Origin: Pasteuria penetrans
GTDB taxonomy: Bacteria > Bacillota > Bacilli > Thermoactinomycetales > Thermoactinomycetaceae
Direction: 5' to 3'
NCBI RefSeq assembly: GCF_900538055.1
Contig: NZ_UZAC03000002.1
Span: forward strand, 62,001-126,000
Length of the DNA: 64,000 bases
The position numbers and the translations under genes are program-made. Below are positions 19,628 through 58,171 of this stretch, piece by piece (position 1 is the first letter of the stretch; each line of letters opens with the position of its first letter). Under the pieces are notes generated by a model. It had not been told where the DNA came from, searched no databases, and worked only from the letters and a program-made list of their open reading frames with translations.

Positions 19628-21914
<2,287 letters not shown>

Positions 21915-21968: not shown

Positions 21969-22475
21969 TTACCCCCAAGCAACCTTGAGGAAGAACCACA
22001 AAATCAGGGCCGTCATAACAAAAAACTTCACCAAAATACCCGCTAAAAAACCAGTGATAGTACCAGCGGCAACTTTGGCGGCACCCGCCCAATCTTGATC
22101 ACCTAGCCAACGCTCTACCATCATCACAGCCAAAAAAGGACCCACCAAAAGTGCCAAGGGATTGTAAATAGCAAACATAGAAGACAAAATCAATCCCCCC
22201 ACAGAGGCCCAGACAGCATAACCGGAACCGCCGCGTTTATGAACGGTCCAACTACTCATTACCCAGTCCACAACAAATGTCAACAAAACGATGACAATCG
22301 AAAGAATCCAAAAAGAAATGCCCAAGGACACCTTACCAATGAAAAGAGAATAGGCCAAGAAACCCACCAGTAAAAACGGCATGGAGGGCAGAAGAGGGAC
22401 GATCAAACCAATATAGGCTAGTAAAAAATTGAGAATGACAAGGGACCACCCCAAAAAATCCAACACCTTATTCAT
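21969..22475 (-). CDS. DUF456 membrane protein
   Basis: A ~168-residue integral membrane protein with four to five hydrophobic helices. It starts with a Gly/Pro-bearing helix (GLIVPLLPSMPFLLVG) characteristic of the DUF456 family, and the second half holds a Gly/Ala-rich helix pair, also typical. Function is unknown in the family. The ATG at 22,475 follows AAGGGGGG closely. A GTG at 22,487 overlapping the ynbB stop (GTGA) is the alternative; either way it is translationally linked to ynbB. A strong terminator follows. Confidence 0.75.
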   Translation of the reverse strand: MNKVLDFLGWSLVILNFLLAYIGLIVPLLPSMPFLLVGFLAYSLFIGKVSLGISFWILSIVIVLLTFVVDWVMSSWTVHKRGGSGYAVWASVGGLILSSMFAIYNPLALLVGPFLAVMMVERWLGDQDWAGAAKVAAGTITGFLAGILVKFFVMTALILWFFLKVAWG

Positions 22476-22483
22476 TCCCCCCT

Positions 22484-23755
22484 TCACAGGATGCGAAAAG
22501 TTGCCTCCATCAACGCGTGCTTCACATGCGCATAGGTAAGACCCCCCTGCAAATAAAGTACATAAGGAAAACGAAGGGGCGCATCCGCGGAAAGTTCCAA
22601 ACTGGAGCCCTGCACAAAGGTTCCACCTGCCATAATAATCTCATCATCATACCCAGGCATAGGAGAGGCCTCAGGGATCACGTGCGAATCGATGGGGGAG
22701 AAGGCCTGAATACCTCGACAGAAGTTTAACAAACGATCCTTGGTCCCCAAATGAAGCTTCTGCACCAAATCAAAGCGAGGGGCATCCCAAACCGGATCCA
22801 CAGCATATCCTAGGTCCGATAGCAGGGAGGCAGCCAACACCGCACCCTTCAGTGCCTCTCCAACTGCATGCGGAGCCAGAAAGAGACCCTGGTAACAATC
22901 CCGTAACCAACCATAAGTGGCCCCAATTTCTGTACCCAGGCCCGGGGCCATCAAACGCCCCGCCACCTGATTCACCAGCTTCCGACTCCCCACCACATAG
23001 CCCCCACCCTTTGCTAGCCCACCGCCGGGGTTTTTAATCAGCGAACCCGCCATCAAATCAGCACCACCGGAATGCGTAGGCTCACGGGACTCCACGAACT
23101 CCCCATAACAATTGTCGACGAAAAATACACAATCGGGAAGTTGGGTACGAAGCTCGGCAATGGCACTACGCAACACCCTCACCGATAGGGCAGACCTCGT
23201 AGAATCGTAGCCACAGGAACGCTGCAGGGCAATCAACCGTGTGCGGGGACTGGCCCGATTCAAAATACCCGATACATCGATTCCTCCATCAGGCAACAGG
23301 GGAACGAAATGGCAATCGATACCCTGTTGGATCAACGACCCGTCCGAACCCCCACACAAAACAGGGCGCAACGTATCATAGGGAACACCCGTTCCATAAA
23401 TCATTTCCTGGCCTGGACGCAACACAGCAAACAAACAAGCCGCTATCGCGTGTGTACCCGACACAAAATGCGGTCGTACCAATCCAGCCTCCGCTCCCAT
23501 TAAATCTGCCATCAGGGCATCGAACGCACGTCTACCCCCATCCCCATAACCGTACCCCATAGAACCTACCATATGAAGATCGGTAATCCTATGGCGACGG
23601 AAACAGAACAAAACCCTCGCCTGATGGCGCTCCGCACGGCGGGAAATAGCATGACACACGGGAGCCAAACGGGCTTCACACCGAGCCAACGACGCACGCA
23701 ACCGGGCCCTTTTCTCCGCCTGTCGACGCCCACACATTCCTAAACTATCAACCAA
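22484..23755 (-). CDS. ynbB: YnbB-type PLP-dependent methionine gamma-lyase-like protein
   Basis: A 423-residue fold-type I PLP enzyme of the Met_gamma_lyase/'aluminium resistance' family. Visible signatures are GYGYGD (residues ~68-72), FVSGTHAI (~98-104), the Asp-bearing FFVDNCYGEF (~211-220) and the PLP lysine in GSLIKNPGGG (Lys241). The C-terminal YVLYLQGGLTY is also typical. The catalytic substrate has not been established for most members. A TTG start at 23,755 is assumed; ATG six codons further is possible. It follows hfq by 15 bases, the order also seen in Bacillus. Confidence 0.88.
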   Translation of the reverse strand: MVDSLGMCGRRQAEKRARLRASLARCEARLAPVCHAISRRAERHQARVLFCFRRHRITDLHMVGSMGYGYGDGGRRAFDALMADLMGAEAGLVRPHFVSGTHAIAACLFAVLRPGQEMIYGTGVPYDTLRPVLCGGSDGSLIQQGIDCHFVPLLPDGGIDVSGILNRASPRTRLIALQRSCGYDSTRSALSVRVLRSAIAELRTQLPDCVFFVDNCYGEFVESREPTHSGGADLMAGSLIKNPGGGLAKGGGYVVGSRKLVNQVAGRLMAPGLGTEIGATYGWLRDCYQGLFLAPHAVGEALKGAVLAASLLSDLGYAVDPVWDAPRFDLVQKLHLGTKDRLLNFCRGIQAFSPIDSHVIPEASPMPGYDDEIIMAGGTFVQGSSLELSADAPLRFPYVLYLQGGLTYAHVKHALMEATFRIL

Positions 23756-23770
23756 TGAAAACGCACACCC

Positions 23771-24040
23771 TCACCTCTCCTTTTTGCCCTCGAGCTGAAC
23801 AGGACACGATGGCACAAAGGTAGAAATGGCGTGCTTATATACCATTTGCTGTTTCTGCTGTCCTCTATCCTGTTGTCTCTGTTGACCCTTGTCCGTGACG
23901 ACAATCAAAATCGTAAAATTATCGAAACTTTCTACCAAACCATGCAATTGAACACCATTTACCAAATAGATAGTTACAGGAATGGATTCTTTTCGAATAT
24001 GATTGAGAAAAGCATCCTGAACATTGATAGATAACTTCAC
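23771..24040 (-). CDS. hfq: RNA chaperone Hfq with a Gln-rich loop insertion
   Basis: An Sm-like hexameric RNA-binding protein. Sm1 ([18 protein letters not shown], then FDNFT) and the Sm2 signature YKHAIS are intact, so the core should fold. The protein is 89 residues, against about 73 in Bacillus. The extra length is a Gln-rich insertion ([15 protein letters not shown]) between the third and fourth strands, where B. subtilis Hfq has a tight turn. A perfect AGGAGGT lies five bases before the ATG. It is downstream of miaA and just upstream of ynbB, the conserved Bacillales order. Confidence 0.95.
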
Positions 24041-24278
24041 ATATGCACCTCCTGATTCCTTCCAACCTCTCTCTCACGGGACCAATTCCCGTATCGCTTC
24101 TCTGAACCTACCCCAAACGATCCATCCACAATCATTCACAACCCCCTGGCCGTCCGTCGCTTACTATTACCCACTGTCTTCTATTGTACGTTCTCCCCAG
24201 CAAGGATTCAACGTCATTTCCAAACAAACCACCAACAGACACCCTAGGGGGGGACGAATTCCCCCGCAAAACCATTTG

Positions 24279-25184
24279 TCATCCAAACCACCGGGCCTCA
24301 CTATACCCCAACACCTTTTCCACGGTCCCCTCACCCAATGGATTGACACTAAGCCAATCAGACCAACGACGCCACCAAGTTCTCTGCTTTTTCACAAAAC
24401 GTTGTGTTGTTTGCAGAACAGACCCCATGGTATGGGAAAAGGTATGCCTTCCATCGAGATATAACAACCACTCCCGGTAGCCAATGGCCTGCATAGCGGG
24501 CCATTCAACAGAGGCACCCTGCGCCCGTAACCAACGCATCTCCGCCAGCCACCCCTTATGGATCATGGATTGTAAACGGTCCTGTAAACGAACCCTCAAA
24601 ATCTCCATAGGTACATCCAGCTTCACCCCCGCCACGCAATACGCAGGTTTTTCCCTCTGACCTATCCCCTGCTCCGAATACAGTGCCAACTCCAGCGCCC
24701 TTATGACACGACGTACATTGTGGGGATGAATCCCTGCCGCCCTCTCGCTGTGCCGTCGTTGCAATACTCTGTGCAACGCCAGAGTACCCCACCGTTCTAC
24801 ATATCTCATACAAGCAGAACGAAAGAGGGGCTGAGGGGGAACCTGGGGGATACGATATCCCTCTAACAAACTCATTATGTACAGGCCTGTCCCACCCGCC
24901 ACAATGGGCATCCGGCCCCGTTTATGAATGGAAGCAATAGCCCTACACGCTAAACGTTGATAATGAAAAAGGGGAAAAACATCCCAAGGATCACATAAAT
25001 CCAACATATGATGAGAAATACCCTGTTGTTCTGCTAATGTGGGCTTGGCCGTACCTACCTGCAACCCCCGATACACCTGAAACGCATCGGCAGAAACAAC
25101 TTCTCCATTCAAACGCTGGGCTAGGGATACCGCAAGGGCCGTTTTCCCCACACCAGTTGGACCCACAATGACTAGAACCCTCAT
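24279..25184 (-). CDS. miaA: tRNA dimethylallyltransferase
   Basis: Adds a dimethylallyl group to A37 of tRNAs reading UNN codons. The P-loop GPTGVGKT sits near the N-terminus, followed by SADAFQVYRGLQVGTAKPT (substrate-binding Asp and Gln-Val-Tyr). GGTGLY and a C-terminal helical part are present. The length of ~301 residues is normal. ATG 25,184 overlaps the end of the upstream methyltransferase; an ATG four codons earlier is possible. It lies in the mutL-methyltransferase-miaA-hfq order. Confidence 0.95.
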   Translation of the reverse strand: MRVLVIVGPTGVGKTALAVSLAQRLNGEVVSADAFQVYRGLQVGTAKPTLAEQQGISHHMLDLCDPWDVFPLFHYQRLACRAIASIHKRGRMPIVAGGTGLYIMSLLEGYRIPQVPPQPLFRSACMRYVERWGTLALHRVLQRRHSERAAGIHPHNVRRVIRALELALYSEQGIGQREKPAYCVAGVKLDVPMEILRVRLQDRLQSMIHKGWLAEMRWLRAQGASVEWPAMQAIGYREWLLYLDGRHTFSHTMGSVLQTTQRFVKKQRTWWRRWSDWLSVNPLGEGTVEKVLGYSEARWFG

Positions 25185-25978
25185 ACACCTACACATTCTT
25201 CCGTTGGTAAAACCCCATAAAAATGATAACCTGCCTTCTTAACAAGGGAAAAACCAAAATCATAAAAGGGAAAGGAGGCATCCGCCTTCAAAATCACCGC
25301 ACGACGAGCCACCCGCTGGGCCATACCCACCATCTCCTTTTCCAGGGGGGAACAATTGGCGAAGGAACGCAGGGCCTGAATAGAGGGGGACCGCGATCCC
25401 GGGTGTAGAAACATCGGATCCAGGTACACAATATCAAAACAACGTTCAGGGAGACGCCTCAGATCCCGCCGGTGATCACGCCAATGGATCACAACATTGC
25501 GCATGGCCTGCATCAACGCCCTATCGGGGGATACATACGTTTGCAAACCATGTTTTGCCAACAAAAAAATGGATAGTTGGCTCTCCCAACCCTCCACCCT
25601 TCCCGACGATCCTCCCCACTGAGTAATATAGGAAGCCACCGTAGCATCTGCCCCCAACCCCATGGTTGCATCCAATAGCGCATCCCCCGGTCGCATCCGC
25701 AAATAACGGAAAAAAGGATCCGAGAGACCCTTACGCAGTTGTCGAACCCGTAGACGGGAGCTGCCAGGATGAAACGAAAGGGAAGAGCCACCCTTGTGAA
25801 CAAGACGCCAGGTATCCTTTCCCAAAACCAGCACCTCGCTCTCTTCATGGGCAGACAACAACCTCATCAGGGATGGGAAACACTGCCGGGAAACATAGAC
25901 AACCCCATATTGCTGAGCAATTCTCATAGCCTCCCCCTGACAAAACGACATACACTGCAGGGATGTTGTTACTAACAT
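25181..25978 (-). CDS. RsmJ-like class I SAM-dependent methyltransferase
   Basis: 265 residues. A DATMGLGADA motif (~102-111) is the SAM-binding loop of the RsmJ/DUF548-like family, and YLDPMF (~172) matches the D-P-x-F region of the same fold. The N-terminus MLVTTS agrees with Firmicute relatives and supports the start at 25,978, preceded by GAGGGGAG. Its position between mutL and miaA is common in Bacillales. In Escherichia coli RsmJ methylates G1516 of 16S rRNA; the substrate of this branch is not established. Confidence 0.8.
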   Translation of the reverse strand: MLVTTSLQCMSFCQGEAMRIAQQYGVVYVSRQCFPSLMRLLSAHEESEVLVLGKDTWRLVHKGGSSLSFHPGSSRLRVRQLRKGLSDPFFRYLRMRPGDALLDATMGLGADATVASYITQWGGSSGRVEGWESQLSIFLLAKHGLQTYVSPDRALMQAMRNVVIHWRDHRRDLRRLPERCFDIVYLDPMFLHPGSRSPSIQALRSFANCSPLEKEMVGMAQRVARRAVILKADASFPFYDFGFSLVKKAGYHFYGVLPTEECVGV

Positions 25979-25984
25979 CTCCCC

Positions 25985-27925
25985 TCACCGTCCCCTCCGA
26001 AACAATTGAGCCAGTTCATCGCTGGCCATGCGCACCACCACGGGACGACCATGGGGACAGGTAGCGGGTTGTTGGCAATTCATCCACTGCTGCAATAATG
26101 ACTCCATCTCAGCGGTGCTAAGCCGATGTTGGGCCTTGATGGAAGCCCGACAGGACCAACGACTTGCCAACTCCGCCAACCAGCGGGTTGGCTTCGATTT
26201 ACCCAAACGGGCCACCTCAGTCAGCCAATCGGGGAGGATAGCGGTTGCTTCTTGAACGGACCATACGGCAGGATAGGAACGGATCAAAAAGGTCGACTCG
26301 CCAAAGAAATCTACCTCTATACCAATCTCTGCCAGGGAGGGTAGTAGAGACTCTAGGGCATAGGCCTCGTCGCGTGGCAATTCCACAGATATGGGGAGGA
26401 GGAGAACCTGGGACGACCCCTGATCCGCCCCTTGTAAGGAAGTACACAAGCGCTCATAATGGACGCGTTCGTGAGCAGCATGCTGATCGATGAGATACAT
26501 ACCATCCTCTGCCTCAGCCACAATGTAAGTCGCATGAATTTGGCCTACTGGTTGCAAACGAGGCCACTTCGTAGCGGGGATAGAGGACAACGACCCTGGG
26601 GATATTCCCATCCCCCCGATATTTTCCGTCCCATCGGGGATCGATAAATTCTGCTGTGCAGGACGGGATTCCCCTCCTGCAGAATGGGTTTCCCAATCCC
26701 TGCGGCGATAGGGAATCGTCTGTACCCCATGTTCCTTTCCAGCCCGTCTCCCATCTGCCCTTGTGGACGGTGATATCCCCGGTTTAGAACGGGAACACAA
26801 AGCATGAGCCCTTGTCTCCACAGGAATCCCACCCCCATCAGGAACCCCATCCCCGTCACGCACTACCGGCGATGTGGACGGCGTCACCGCGGGCTCCGGT
26901 GCAGGTACCAATGCGACCGGGGGGATCAATAATCCTCCTGCCTCCCTCCACGTCCGCCTTACTAATTGTGTAACCGATTCACCCAGCTCCGTTTCACAAC
27001 GCAAACGAACGACTTGCTTGGCAGGGTGGACATTGGCATCCACCCGCTGCGGATCCAACCGAACATGAAGAACCGCTACGGGATAACGACCACGCTGTAA
27101 AAGGGTTTCATATCCCCTCAGGAGAGCTTGGGATAGTGCATCCGAACGTACACACCGTCCATTGATCACCCAAACGATACCACGACGATCGGAACGCGTA
27201 TGGGTAGGTCGTACTACAAGACCCTCAATGGACCACTCTGGAGTACTCACCGCCGTGGGTAGAGCCGCCTGCGCCACCTTACCGCCAAAAACGGCATGGA
27301 GAGCGTGCCGGAGCTCCCCATCCCCCGGCGCATCCAGTAGGAAACGTTTGTTCTGCATCAATGTAATTTTCACCTTGGGATTGGCCAAAACGAGTCTCTG
27401 CACGGTATGGATCACATGGCTTGTTTCCGTCGATGTCGCGCCCAAATGATGGAGACGGGCTGGTGCGTTATAAAACAAATGCGCAACACGTATTCGGGTG
27501 CCCTGTGGCCAAGCCACTTTCCCCGTAGCATCAACATTTCCATCCCGAATCGTATAACTACGACCTGCGTTCTCCCCCTCCTGACAAGTTACCAAGTCAA
27601 CCTGGGAAACAGAAGCAATACTGGCCAGGGCCTCCCCCCGAAAACCGAGGGCCATATGGTTTTGCAAATCCCGATCACTACGGATTTTGCTCGTTGCATG
27701 ACGCACGAATGCAAGTCCCACATCCCCATCATCAAGACCTTCCCCATCGTCCTGCACGGTAAGGGAACCAACCCCTCCCTCCTCCATTTGGACAGAAACC
27801 ACACCAGCACCCGCATCCAGGGAATTCTCTATCAACTCTTTTACCATGGATGCAGGTCGCTCTATGATTTCCCCTGCGGCGATACGCACCGCTACTTCCG
27901 GCGATAAAACCTGGATCTTTCCCAC
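25985..27925 (-). CDS. mutL: DNA mismatch repair protein MutL
   Basis: An ATPase and endonuclease that links MutS to strand removal. GTG at 27,925 is chosen because the conserved N-terminus (GKIQVLSPEVAVRIAAGE) begins there, and a run of seven G lies ~12 bases upstream; the longer frame to 28,048 adds non-conserved residues. GHKL ATPase motifs ELIENSLDAGA, DDGEGL, HATSKI and GFRGEAL are intact. After a variable linker the C-terminal endonuclease motif DQHAAHERVHYE is present, as in bacteria without MutH, along with CPHGRP. The gene is 7 bases from the methyltransferase. Its usual upstream partner, mutS, is 9.9 kb away. Confidence 0.96.
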   Translation of the reverse strand: MGKIQVLSPEVAVRIAAGEIIERPASMVKELIENSLDAGAGVVSVQMEEGGVGSLTVQDDGEGLDDGDVGLAFVRHATSKIRSDRDLQNHMALGFRGEALASIASVSQVDLVTCQEGENAGRSYTIRDGNVDATGKVAWPQGTRIRVAHLFYNAPARLHHLGATSTETSHVIHTVQRLVLANPKVKITLMQNKRFLLDAPGDGELRHALHAVFGGKVAQAALPTAVSTPEWSIEGLVVRPTHTRSDRRGIVWVINGRCVRSDALSQALLRGYETLLQRGRYPVAVLHVRLDPQRVDANVHPAKQVVRLRCETELGESVTQLVRRTWREAGGLLIPPVALVPAPEPAVTPSTSPVVRDGDGVPDGGGIPVETRAHALCSRSKPGISPSTRADGRRAGKEHGVQTIPYRRRDWETHSAGGESRPAQQNLSIPDGTENIGGMGISPGSLSSIPATKWPRLQPVGQIHATYIVAEAEDGMYLIDQHAAHERVHYERLCTSLQGADQGSSQVLLLPISVELPRDEAYALESLLPSLAEIGIEVDFFGESTFLIRSYPAVWSVQEATAILPDWLTEVARLGKSKPTRWLAELASRWSCRASIKAQHRLSTAEMESLLQQWMNCQQPATCPHGRPVVVRMASDELAQLFRRGR

Positions 27926-56915: not shown

Positions 56916-58171
56916 TTACCACCGCTGATTGATGTCCTATGCTCATTGGTTAGGTTCGCAGTCCTCCGGGGCAATCCGAACAAGAAAGAAGTTGCCTACC
57001 GGAATTGTGAACAAAATGCAGTTCTAATCTGTAGCGGGGGACCCCGATCCAACCCTTCGGAATCATACACAGAGAAAAAAACTCTAGAAGAGTAGAGAGT
57101 GCCAGGAAACTGGAGATCGGGTGGGGGAAGCTCCTCCCCTTCCCTAGGGATGTCCCAGAGTACATCCCTAGGCCCCATAACGAATGAATCATGTTCGATT
57201 GAACCGGTACTTACGTGGCGGGGACAGGTGCACAGAACACTATTCATACAAGATTTAGATTGGGAATGATAGGGATGGCCCCTACCCCAAAACATTTGTA
57301 TTTGAATAGTAAGGCTTTTAAAATAAATTAAAAGACAGATTCAATAAAAGCCTACATATAGCATAAAGGGATTAATATATAGAATGTTATGAGTACATAG
57401 AAGCAAAAACGGAGAGTAAGGTAGGGAGTACCTGAATAGCCAACTCGTGCCGTCCATACTTTGGACCCTTACACCCAGAGGAAGACACGGAAAACGTAAC
57501 ACCAGACTAGGCAAAATCCTATGGAACCATAAGAGCCACATAATGCAAGAGTAGTACGTATGGTTCTGTGAGGGGGTTGGCTGAGATGCCATCCCTACCC
57601 GACGTGTTTACATCTGCCCGGATTTGAATTTCCCCCTTCGATACGTTGCCGGCCGGTTCGCTTGCGCTCATCTTCCTCAACGTTCACCAAGCAAAGTCAT
57701 GCCTCGCCTTTTCCCTAGCCGCTCACGACCCATGCCTTTACCATAAGACGCGCTAGGGAGGTTTGGAACCTACTATCTATCGATCGGTTCCAAAAAGGGT
57801 CTGCTCCTTTCATCTTTTTTGCACCTAGCTCGGCGCACGACCTCCCAAGTTCCGTATAAGCGCCTAGATTAGGTTCCATCCGGTCTATACGCCGCATGCC
57901 GCCCGGATCGTAAGTAGGTCATCCTCCGTAGATTCTCCCGACGTGGAACCACACACCTCGGTTTGGACATGAACCGTTCCTTTCGATGCTGCGTCCTCGA
58001 ATGGTTCACTTTCCTAAACCGCTCACCCACCGGAGTATCTCCACACCAGCATTGTTAGATGGTTGGAAGCCTGCTCCTACCAACCAGCTCCGCCAATTAC
58101 AACCTCCACCACTCATACGGCTTTCTCGATACACTTGTTCGGAAATTTCCACCCCCAACGGAATGCTCTGC
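56916..58171. mobile_element. Intron-like DNA between dacB and spmA
   Basis: Several blocks are shared with other relics in the window. 56,932-56,965 matches 43.96 kb. 57,470-57,600 is a plus-strand group II 3' end (GAGCCACATAATGCAAGAG to GTATGGTTCTGTGAGGGGG, then TTGGCTGAGATG). 57,640-58,160 on the minus strand contains GCTTATACGGAACTTGGGAG and hairpins such as TTGGAACC with GGTTCC. No intact gene is present. It is most simply read as nested or rearranged group II intron remnants. Confidence 0.55.

Follow-up and report, generated by a model that had tools for sequence, protein, structure and literature searches.

A glutamine-rich insertion in loop L4 and substitutions at distal-face positions in the Hfq of Pasteuria penetrans

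Using a window of 64,000 nucleotides from the genome of Pasteuria penetrans (assembly GCF_900538055.1, contig NZ_UZAC03000002.1, positions 62,001 to 126,000 of the forward strand), we analyzed an hfq gene of 89 codons located on the minus strand at 23771..24040; coordinates are those of the window unless a contig is named. The coding sequence begins with a GTG codon (24038-24040, minus strand), and a Shine-Dalgarno-like AGGAGG (24048..24053, minus strand) is found 7 bases upstream of it; the plus-strand translation of 23771-24040 does not yield Hfq. The protein matched the Pfam Hfq family PF17209 at 98.1 bits (cut-off 27, E 2.2e-28), with residues 7-81 aligned to positions 1-63 of the 64 in the profile, and the first-pass annotation, which had been made from the sequence alone, was thus correct in calling it a true Hfq. 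No second Hfq match was found in the genome, which comprises 2.52 Mb in 4 contigs and is 97% complete. According to Pfam, the upstream neighbor is miaA (24279..25196, minus strand; IPP transferase, PF01715), and the downstream neighbor is a ynbB-like gene of the Met_gamma_lyase family (22484..23755, minus strand; PF06838). MiaA adjoins hfq in all 30 loci of relatives that were compared; therefore, the gene of the window is the orthologue, and it represents the single, orthologous hfq of this genome. The Met_gamma_lyase gene was found near hfq in 4 of these 30 loci, which extend only about 1.5 kb on each side.

The species is sampled by one assembly and the genus by one genome, and 22 other genomes come from the same family. 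A same-family genome that is 68% complete (G006) has no Hfq match; this genome is also without a MiaA match, and therefore the absence of Hfq from it is uninformative. Promoter- and terminator-like sites in the hfq region were not in excess over shuffled sequences, and Rfam had no match at hfq; elsewhere in the window, Rfam identified a group II intron domain (57686-57810, minus strand, RF01999, 55 bits). The GC content was 45.9% in the 464 kb sampled; PMC13233619 gives a value of 46% for P. penetrans, versus about 31% for P. ramosa, and groups both species with Thermoactinomyces. A collagen-like protein of 602 amino acids with long GPTGPTG repeats is encoded at 19628-21436 (minus strand), two genes downstream of the DUF456 neighbor of ynbB. 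Genome-wide, collagen-profile matches numbered at least 123 in many open reading frames (150 of 214 candidates were scored), some of them in this protein, and this abundance fits surface fibers of the Pasteuria type; however, PMC13233619 reports that collagen-like genes are not expanded in P. penetrans, on the basis of a draft genome that it describes as being of lower quality.

The protein is distinguished by the length of loop L4, which connects strands 3 and 4. The span from F42 to Y68 comprises 25 residues in the window Hfq and 13 residues in each of the 103 orthologue-type relatives, which represent 85 distinct core sequences; in seven paralogues, it comprises 13 residues (four proteins) or 14 residues (three proteins). 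The resulting set of 110 proteins was taken from the same family, order, class and phylum, and includes the 30 best-scoring Hfqs and 80 that were hand-picked for spread, rather than a random sample. The BLAST placement of the 12-residue insertion is residues 47-58 (23867..23902, minus strand), with uncertainty in its exact edges, and a profile alignment assigned it to residues 47-57 and 59. The 12 insert columns were empty in all 103 orthologue-type relatives, and among the paralogues a single protein (L156) filled one column. The same 12 gap columns in loop L4 were obtained for 30 of 30 relatives in a separate alignment, and a cruder motif parse gave the same result for the 98 orthologue-type proteins that it could read. 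Furthermore, an unselected check of this span by eye, using 146 matches from 129 genomes of the class as well as the matches from 41 genomes of the order, detected no match longer than the profile by more than 2 residues, except for that of the window itself (a net gain of 12 codons). Several same-family relatives encode one or two additional Hfqs, which are paralogues (L155-L161).

The first-pass annotation had described a Gln-rich stretch of 15 letters between strands 3 and 4, and this stretch is present at residues 51-65 (23846-23890, minus strand). It had also stated that the protein is 16 residues longer than Bacillus Hfq, mostly because of this loop. The Hfq of Bacillus subtilis has 73 amino acids, and the loop supplies 12 of the 16 extra residues. 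The short L4 that is usual in bacterial Hfq is, consequently, a trait that the window protein lacks, although the protein matches PF17209, the profile of which does not require it. A survey of related species had been proposed, with the expectation that an insertion missing from close relatives would speak against the suggested reading; the insertion was missing from every relative examined (103/103), a result that applies to the family, given that the genus is represented by this genome alone.

We also searched for long-L4 Hfqs outside of this comparison set. A scan of contigs (at least 3 kb) from 84,980 species, using a pattern for FDNF-type Hfq with a loop 4 to 14 residues longer than usual, produced 37 matches, which were translated and judged by eye, and none of these was an Hfq. 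The end motifs with a normal gap, which require a GAT codon, were present in 20 of 30 known relatives; the scan sees a part of the FDNF-type Hfqs and none of the FDQF type, may omit the record of the window itself, and is the only one of our searches that extends to phyla beyond that of the window. From 314 genomes, the best-scoring matches were considered, whereas an Hfq with an insertion would rank among the weaker ones. Three Hfqs on viral contigs were recovered with one fixed-gap pattern; neither a direct search nor a second pattern revealed viral Hfq relatives. Our searches of the open-licence literature revealed no natural bacterial Hfq with a long L4 among the papers listed on Hfq loops and insertions, and no paper that deals with Pasteuria penetrans and Hfq together.

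The loop includes a repeat of two units, GQQRQQ (residues 52-57; 23870..23887, minus strand) and GQQKQQ (residues 60-65; 23846..23863, minus strand), and the KQQ of the second unit aligns with a KQQ that is conserved in the relatives. The two units differ in 5 of 18 bases, and 4 of these differences are synonymous. The probability of at least 4 synonymous differences is between 0.002 and 0.025 under simple mutation models. The units were, however, chosen after the match between them had been seen in the protein, and the KQQ of the second unit belongs to an old conserved segment; therefore, the synonymous excess is a mere hint that selection may have acted on the repeat. A fresh slippage array is not supported, since no tandem array was detected by TRF at a score of at least 30 in 22000-26000. 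Likewise, an origin as a copy of another Gln-rich gene is not supported: a stretch of 74 bases matched the rest of the genome by at most 14 identical bases (E up to 10). The same observations bear on an assembly or sequencing artefact, the latter having been named in the first-pass annotation as a potential refutation. The species is sampled here by one assembly, which would leave room for such an error. Conversely, the insertion is in frame (36 bases) and is flanked on both sides by normal Hfq sequence, the repeat units have diverged from each other without forming an array, and longer matches elsewhere in the genome are lacking, so that we consider an artefact very improbable.

Besides the insertion, the protein contains unusual residues at otherwise conserved positions. 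Among aligned positions outside residues 47-62, the window residue was found in none of the 103 relatives at positions 3 (Leu), 30 (Val), 33 (His) and 79 (Cys), and in a single relative at positions 7, 37 (Glu), 85 and 86. Two of these are distal-face positions: Val30 (23951..23953) replaces Phe or Tyr, and His33 (23942..23944) replaces Arg or Lys, each of these alternatives being found in 103 of 103 relatives. Glu37 (23930..23932) and Cys79 (23804..23806) are found where Arg or Lys is present in 102 and 101 of 103 relatives, respectively; all four codons are on the minus strand. Rare residues are also found off the distal face, for example, residues 3 and 79 that were never seen in the relatives. 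Conversely, all 103 relatives have the same residue as the window protein at each of Q8, D9, K69, H70, S73 and T74, and 102 of them do so at each of N13 and Y68. The proximal-site residues, which include Q8, are unchanged, and the Sm2 motif YKHAIST is intact. The claim of the first-pass annotation that both Sm motifs are intact was therefore borne out for Sm2; it did not hold for Sm1, in view of V30 and H33 (0/103) and E37 (1/103), and the substitutions at distal-face positions had been overlooked. The role of position 30 in the distal face is described in PMC10628458, and that of position 33 in PMC10628458 and PMC5379935; in alignment numbering, residue 30 of the window protein corresponds to residue 30 of the Pseudomonas chain 1u1s. 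An aromatic residue 30 is a trait of the Gram-positive (A-L)n distal site that the window Hfq lacks. Val30 is also found in two paralogues of relatives (L160, L161), which have Arg33 and a loop of 14 residues. We read the likeness of E37-S38 and V30 to Gram-negative Hfq as probable convergence. A horizontal origin of the gene is not favored: the protein has the same RKE and KQQ signatures as the relatives, the identity to relatives is 51-60% (tblastn alignment, gaps counted), and the miaA-hfq adjacency is shared with all 30 relative loci.

These changes have to be compared to the general divergence of the lineage. The median identity of MiaA was 36.1% between the window and 24 relatives, compared to 63.4% among relatives, and the corresponding values for Hfq were 66.2% and 85.0%; judged by these identities, the lineage evolves fast. 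In 49 pairs of homologues (13,017 columns, Hfq included), there were 5 insertions of at least 8 residues on the side of the window genome and 2 in relatives. Gln-rich open reading frames numbered 6 of 452 in 464 kb of the window genome, with hfq being one of the six, versus 0 of 380 in 400 kb of the relative G008; of the other five, three are located in two stretches that had been picked for repeats, and two were unselected. Sites of CARCARNNNCARCAR were also more frequent than in the control (188 versus 50), a number that is inflated by collagen genes, judging from the matches listed. Among individual frames, L105:10923-13364 (plus strand, 813 amino acids, Gln-rich) lies over a run of CAACAACGG repeats, L117:9149-10606 (plus strand, 485 amino acids) is Gln-rich, and L104:2541-5369 (minus strand, 942 amino acids) contains a stretch rich in Gln, Met and Ile; none of the three has a Pfam match at E 0.01.

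The acceleration of the lineage and the additional Gln-rich frames point to tolerated drift, i.e., the expansion of a Gln-rich repeat in a surface loop of the Hfq of a fast-evolving parasite, with no selection against it and with a decaying distal face. Several results disagree with such drift: the length of the loop is invariant in the 103 relatives, the Hfq insertion is the only Gln-rich one among the five long insertions on the window side, proximal-site and Sm2 residues are fully kept, and four of the five differences between the repeat units are synonymous. Altogether, we regard tolerated drift as a serious possibility, somewhat short of an even chance.

The effect of the insertion on charge depends on which part of the protein is counted. 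Counted directly, the charge of loop L4 is about -1 in most relatives (DS[D/E]GKQQ) and about +2 in the window protein. Residues 33, 37 and 79 together account for the loss of about 4 charges, and the basic residues lost at these positions are roughly offset by K51, R55 and R59. The net charge of residues 6-82 is +1 (0 when 13 loop residues are removed), compared to +2 in 97 of 103 relatives; therefore, the insertion does not raise overall basicity. Instead, it shifts positive charge from the face of the domain into a flexible loop. The loop had been called basic and RNA-attractive in the first-pass annotation; the insertion does raise the charge of the loop, but this description is weakened by the loss of basic residues elsewhere in the domain.

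In the AlphaFold2 model of the monomer, built from four input sequences (the window protein and the three Hfqs from viral contigs), the mean pLDDT was 82.7, and 57 of the 89 residues reached a value of at least 90. The predicted elements were a helix at residues 7-17 and five strands; the core is, thus, confidently predicted as an Sm fold. Strands at residues 43-48 and 63-68 flank the loop, and the segment between residues 49 and 62 (23855..23896, minus strand) has no predicted secondary structure, with a mean pLDDT of 49 for residues 51-60. This agrees with the flexibility that had been proposed for the loop, which is predicted as unstructured and is probably disordered. In a fold search, the top 50 matches listed were all Hfq entries or Hfq complexes. 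The best PDB match by sequence (six chains) was 6XYJ, which ranked 6 by fold; among the matches listed from the open-licence literature, no paper contained both this entry code and Hfq. The beta3-beta4 loop of the window protein exceeds that of the Pseudomonas chain 1u1s by 13 residues, versus one residue in the Gram-positive (A-L)n type.

According to PMC5379935, only two regions of Hfq reach the highest variability, in length as well as in composition, and L4 is one of them. According to the review PMC10628458, an added beta3-beta4 residue and a few variations, particularly an aromatic residue 30, convert the (A-A-N) distal site of Gram-negative Hfq into the (A-L) site of Gram-positive Hfq. 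Both of these distal determinants, loop length and residue 30, are changed in the window Hfq, and on this basis we propose that the protein is a working Hfq with a remodeled distal (L4) face, a reading to which we assign about an even chance. The protein most likely still assembles into a ring and retains the binding of U-rich RNA at its unchanged proximal site. The distal face would differ in two ways, namely, by an L4 that is 12 residues longer and probably disordered, and by residues 30 and 33 that depart from the Gram-positive pattern. Provided that the protein assembles into a ring and that the loop lies on its distal face, six loops rich in Gln, Arg and Lys would crown the site for A-rich RNA, and distal RNA contacts would probably be altered. 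The basic side chains that were lost would perhaps be replaced by weak contacts of the flexible loop, similar to the long L4 found in two subunits of the U1 snRNP, SmD2 and SmB. In PMC4500138, the distal surface is equated with the L4 face, and the elongated loops of these two subunits are described as reaching past this face and clamping a stem-loop.

Conversely, the divergence of the whole lineage, as indicated by MiaA, and the occurrence of rare residues outside of the distal face would argue against remodeling. In addition, sRNA pairing in Gram-positive bacteria is described as Hfq-independent in PMC10628458, and therefore selection on Hfq would be weaker. The loop might also serve contacts with proteins rather than with RNA, i.e., stacking of rings, condensation through the Gln-rich segment, or a partner that docks on the distal face. 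For example, the L4 loops of Aquifex Hfq, together with N-terminal residues, dominate ring-ring and crystal contacts (PMC5379935), and the disordered repeat extensions of Borg Sm proteins have been proposed as docking sites (PMC9879509). The 15 mixed Q/R/K/D/G residues are, however, far from an uninterrupted polyQ, and we consider protein contacts an improbable function of the loop.

If the distal face is indeed remodeled, it might recognize RNA in a third way that differs from both (A-A-N)n and (A-L)n. A long, Sm-like L4 crown would have evolved independently, along with a rebuilt site (V30, H33 and the loss of R/K37), and the role of fixed basic side chains would have been taken over by flexible Gln/Arg loops; this more specific proposal is speculative, and we consider it rather unlikely. 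A natural long-L4 Hfq with a changed residue 30 would offer one small protein in which the contributions of L4 and of the distal pocket to RNA specificity can be tested, and it would also allow testing whether convergence of Hfq toward the loops of the Sm proteins from archaea and eukaryotes is possible.

Representing the known systems by their likeness to the window protein, we distinguish the following four comparators. (i) The Gram-positive Hfqs, including Bacillus subtilis YmaH (PDB 3HSB/3AHU) and the relatives from the family and the order, share the Sm fold, the QD..LN..RKE helix, the YKHAIST motif and the miaA-hfq gene order, whereas the window protein has an L4 that is 12 residues longer, and carries V30, H33, E37 and C79 where these relatives have F/Y or R/K. 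(ii) PDB entry 6XYJ, titled "Hfq from E.coli with inserted long loop L4 sequence", resembles the window protein in that its long L4 occupies the same position and the remainder is a normal Hfq; since the entry contains six chains and its fold match is normal, such a loop can evidently be tolerated. In contrast to the window protein, which is a natural case, 6XYJ is engineered, according to its title, and it has another loop sequence and a Gram-negative core; we note that the aligned stretch outside of its loop is identical to that of 1u1s from Pseudomonas aeruginosa, despite the E. coli title. (iii) Archaeal SmAP and eukaryotic Sm proteins with a long L4 share the extended loop with the window Hfq; however, they have an RGXX-type Sm2 motif, and the archaeal proteins are mostly heptamers, whereas the window protein is an Hfq with the [Y/F]KHAI motif that defines Sm2 of this family, and without RGXX (PMC4500138). 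PMC4500138 states that bacterial Hfq lacks the extended L4; in PMC4500138 and PMC2650416, the long loop is considered missing or practically missing from the bacterial proteins, and is described as a feature of archaeal or eukaryotic Sm proteins. (iv) The Borg Sm ribonucleoproteins resemble the window protein in that a disordered segment derived from repeats has been added to a ring protein of the Sm type without loss of the Sm motifs; the Borg repeats are always N-terminal (PMC9879509), whereas those of the window Hfq are located inside the fold, in L4.
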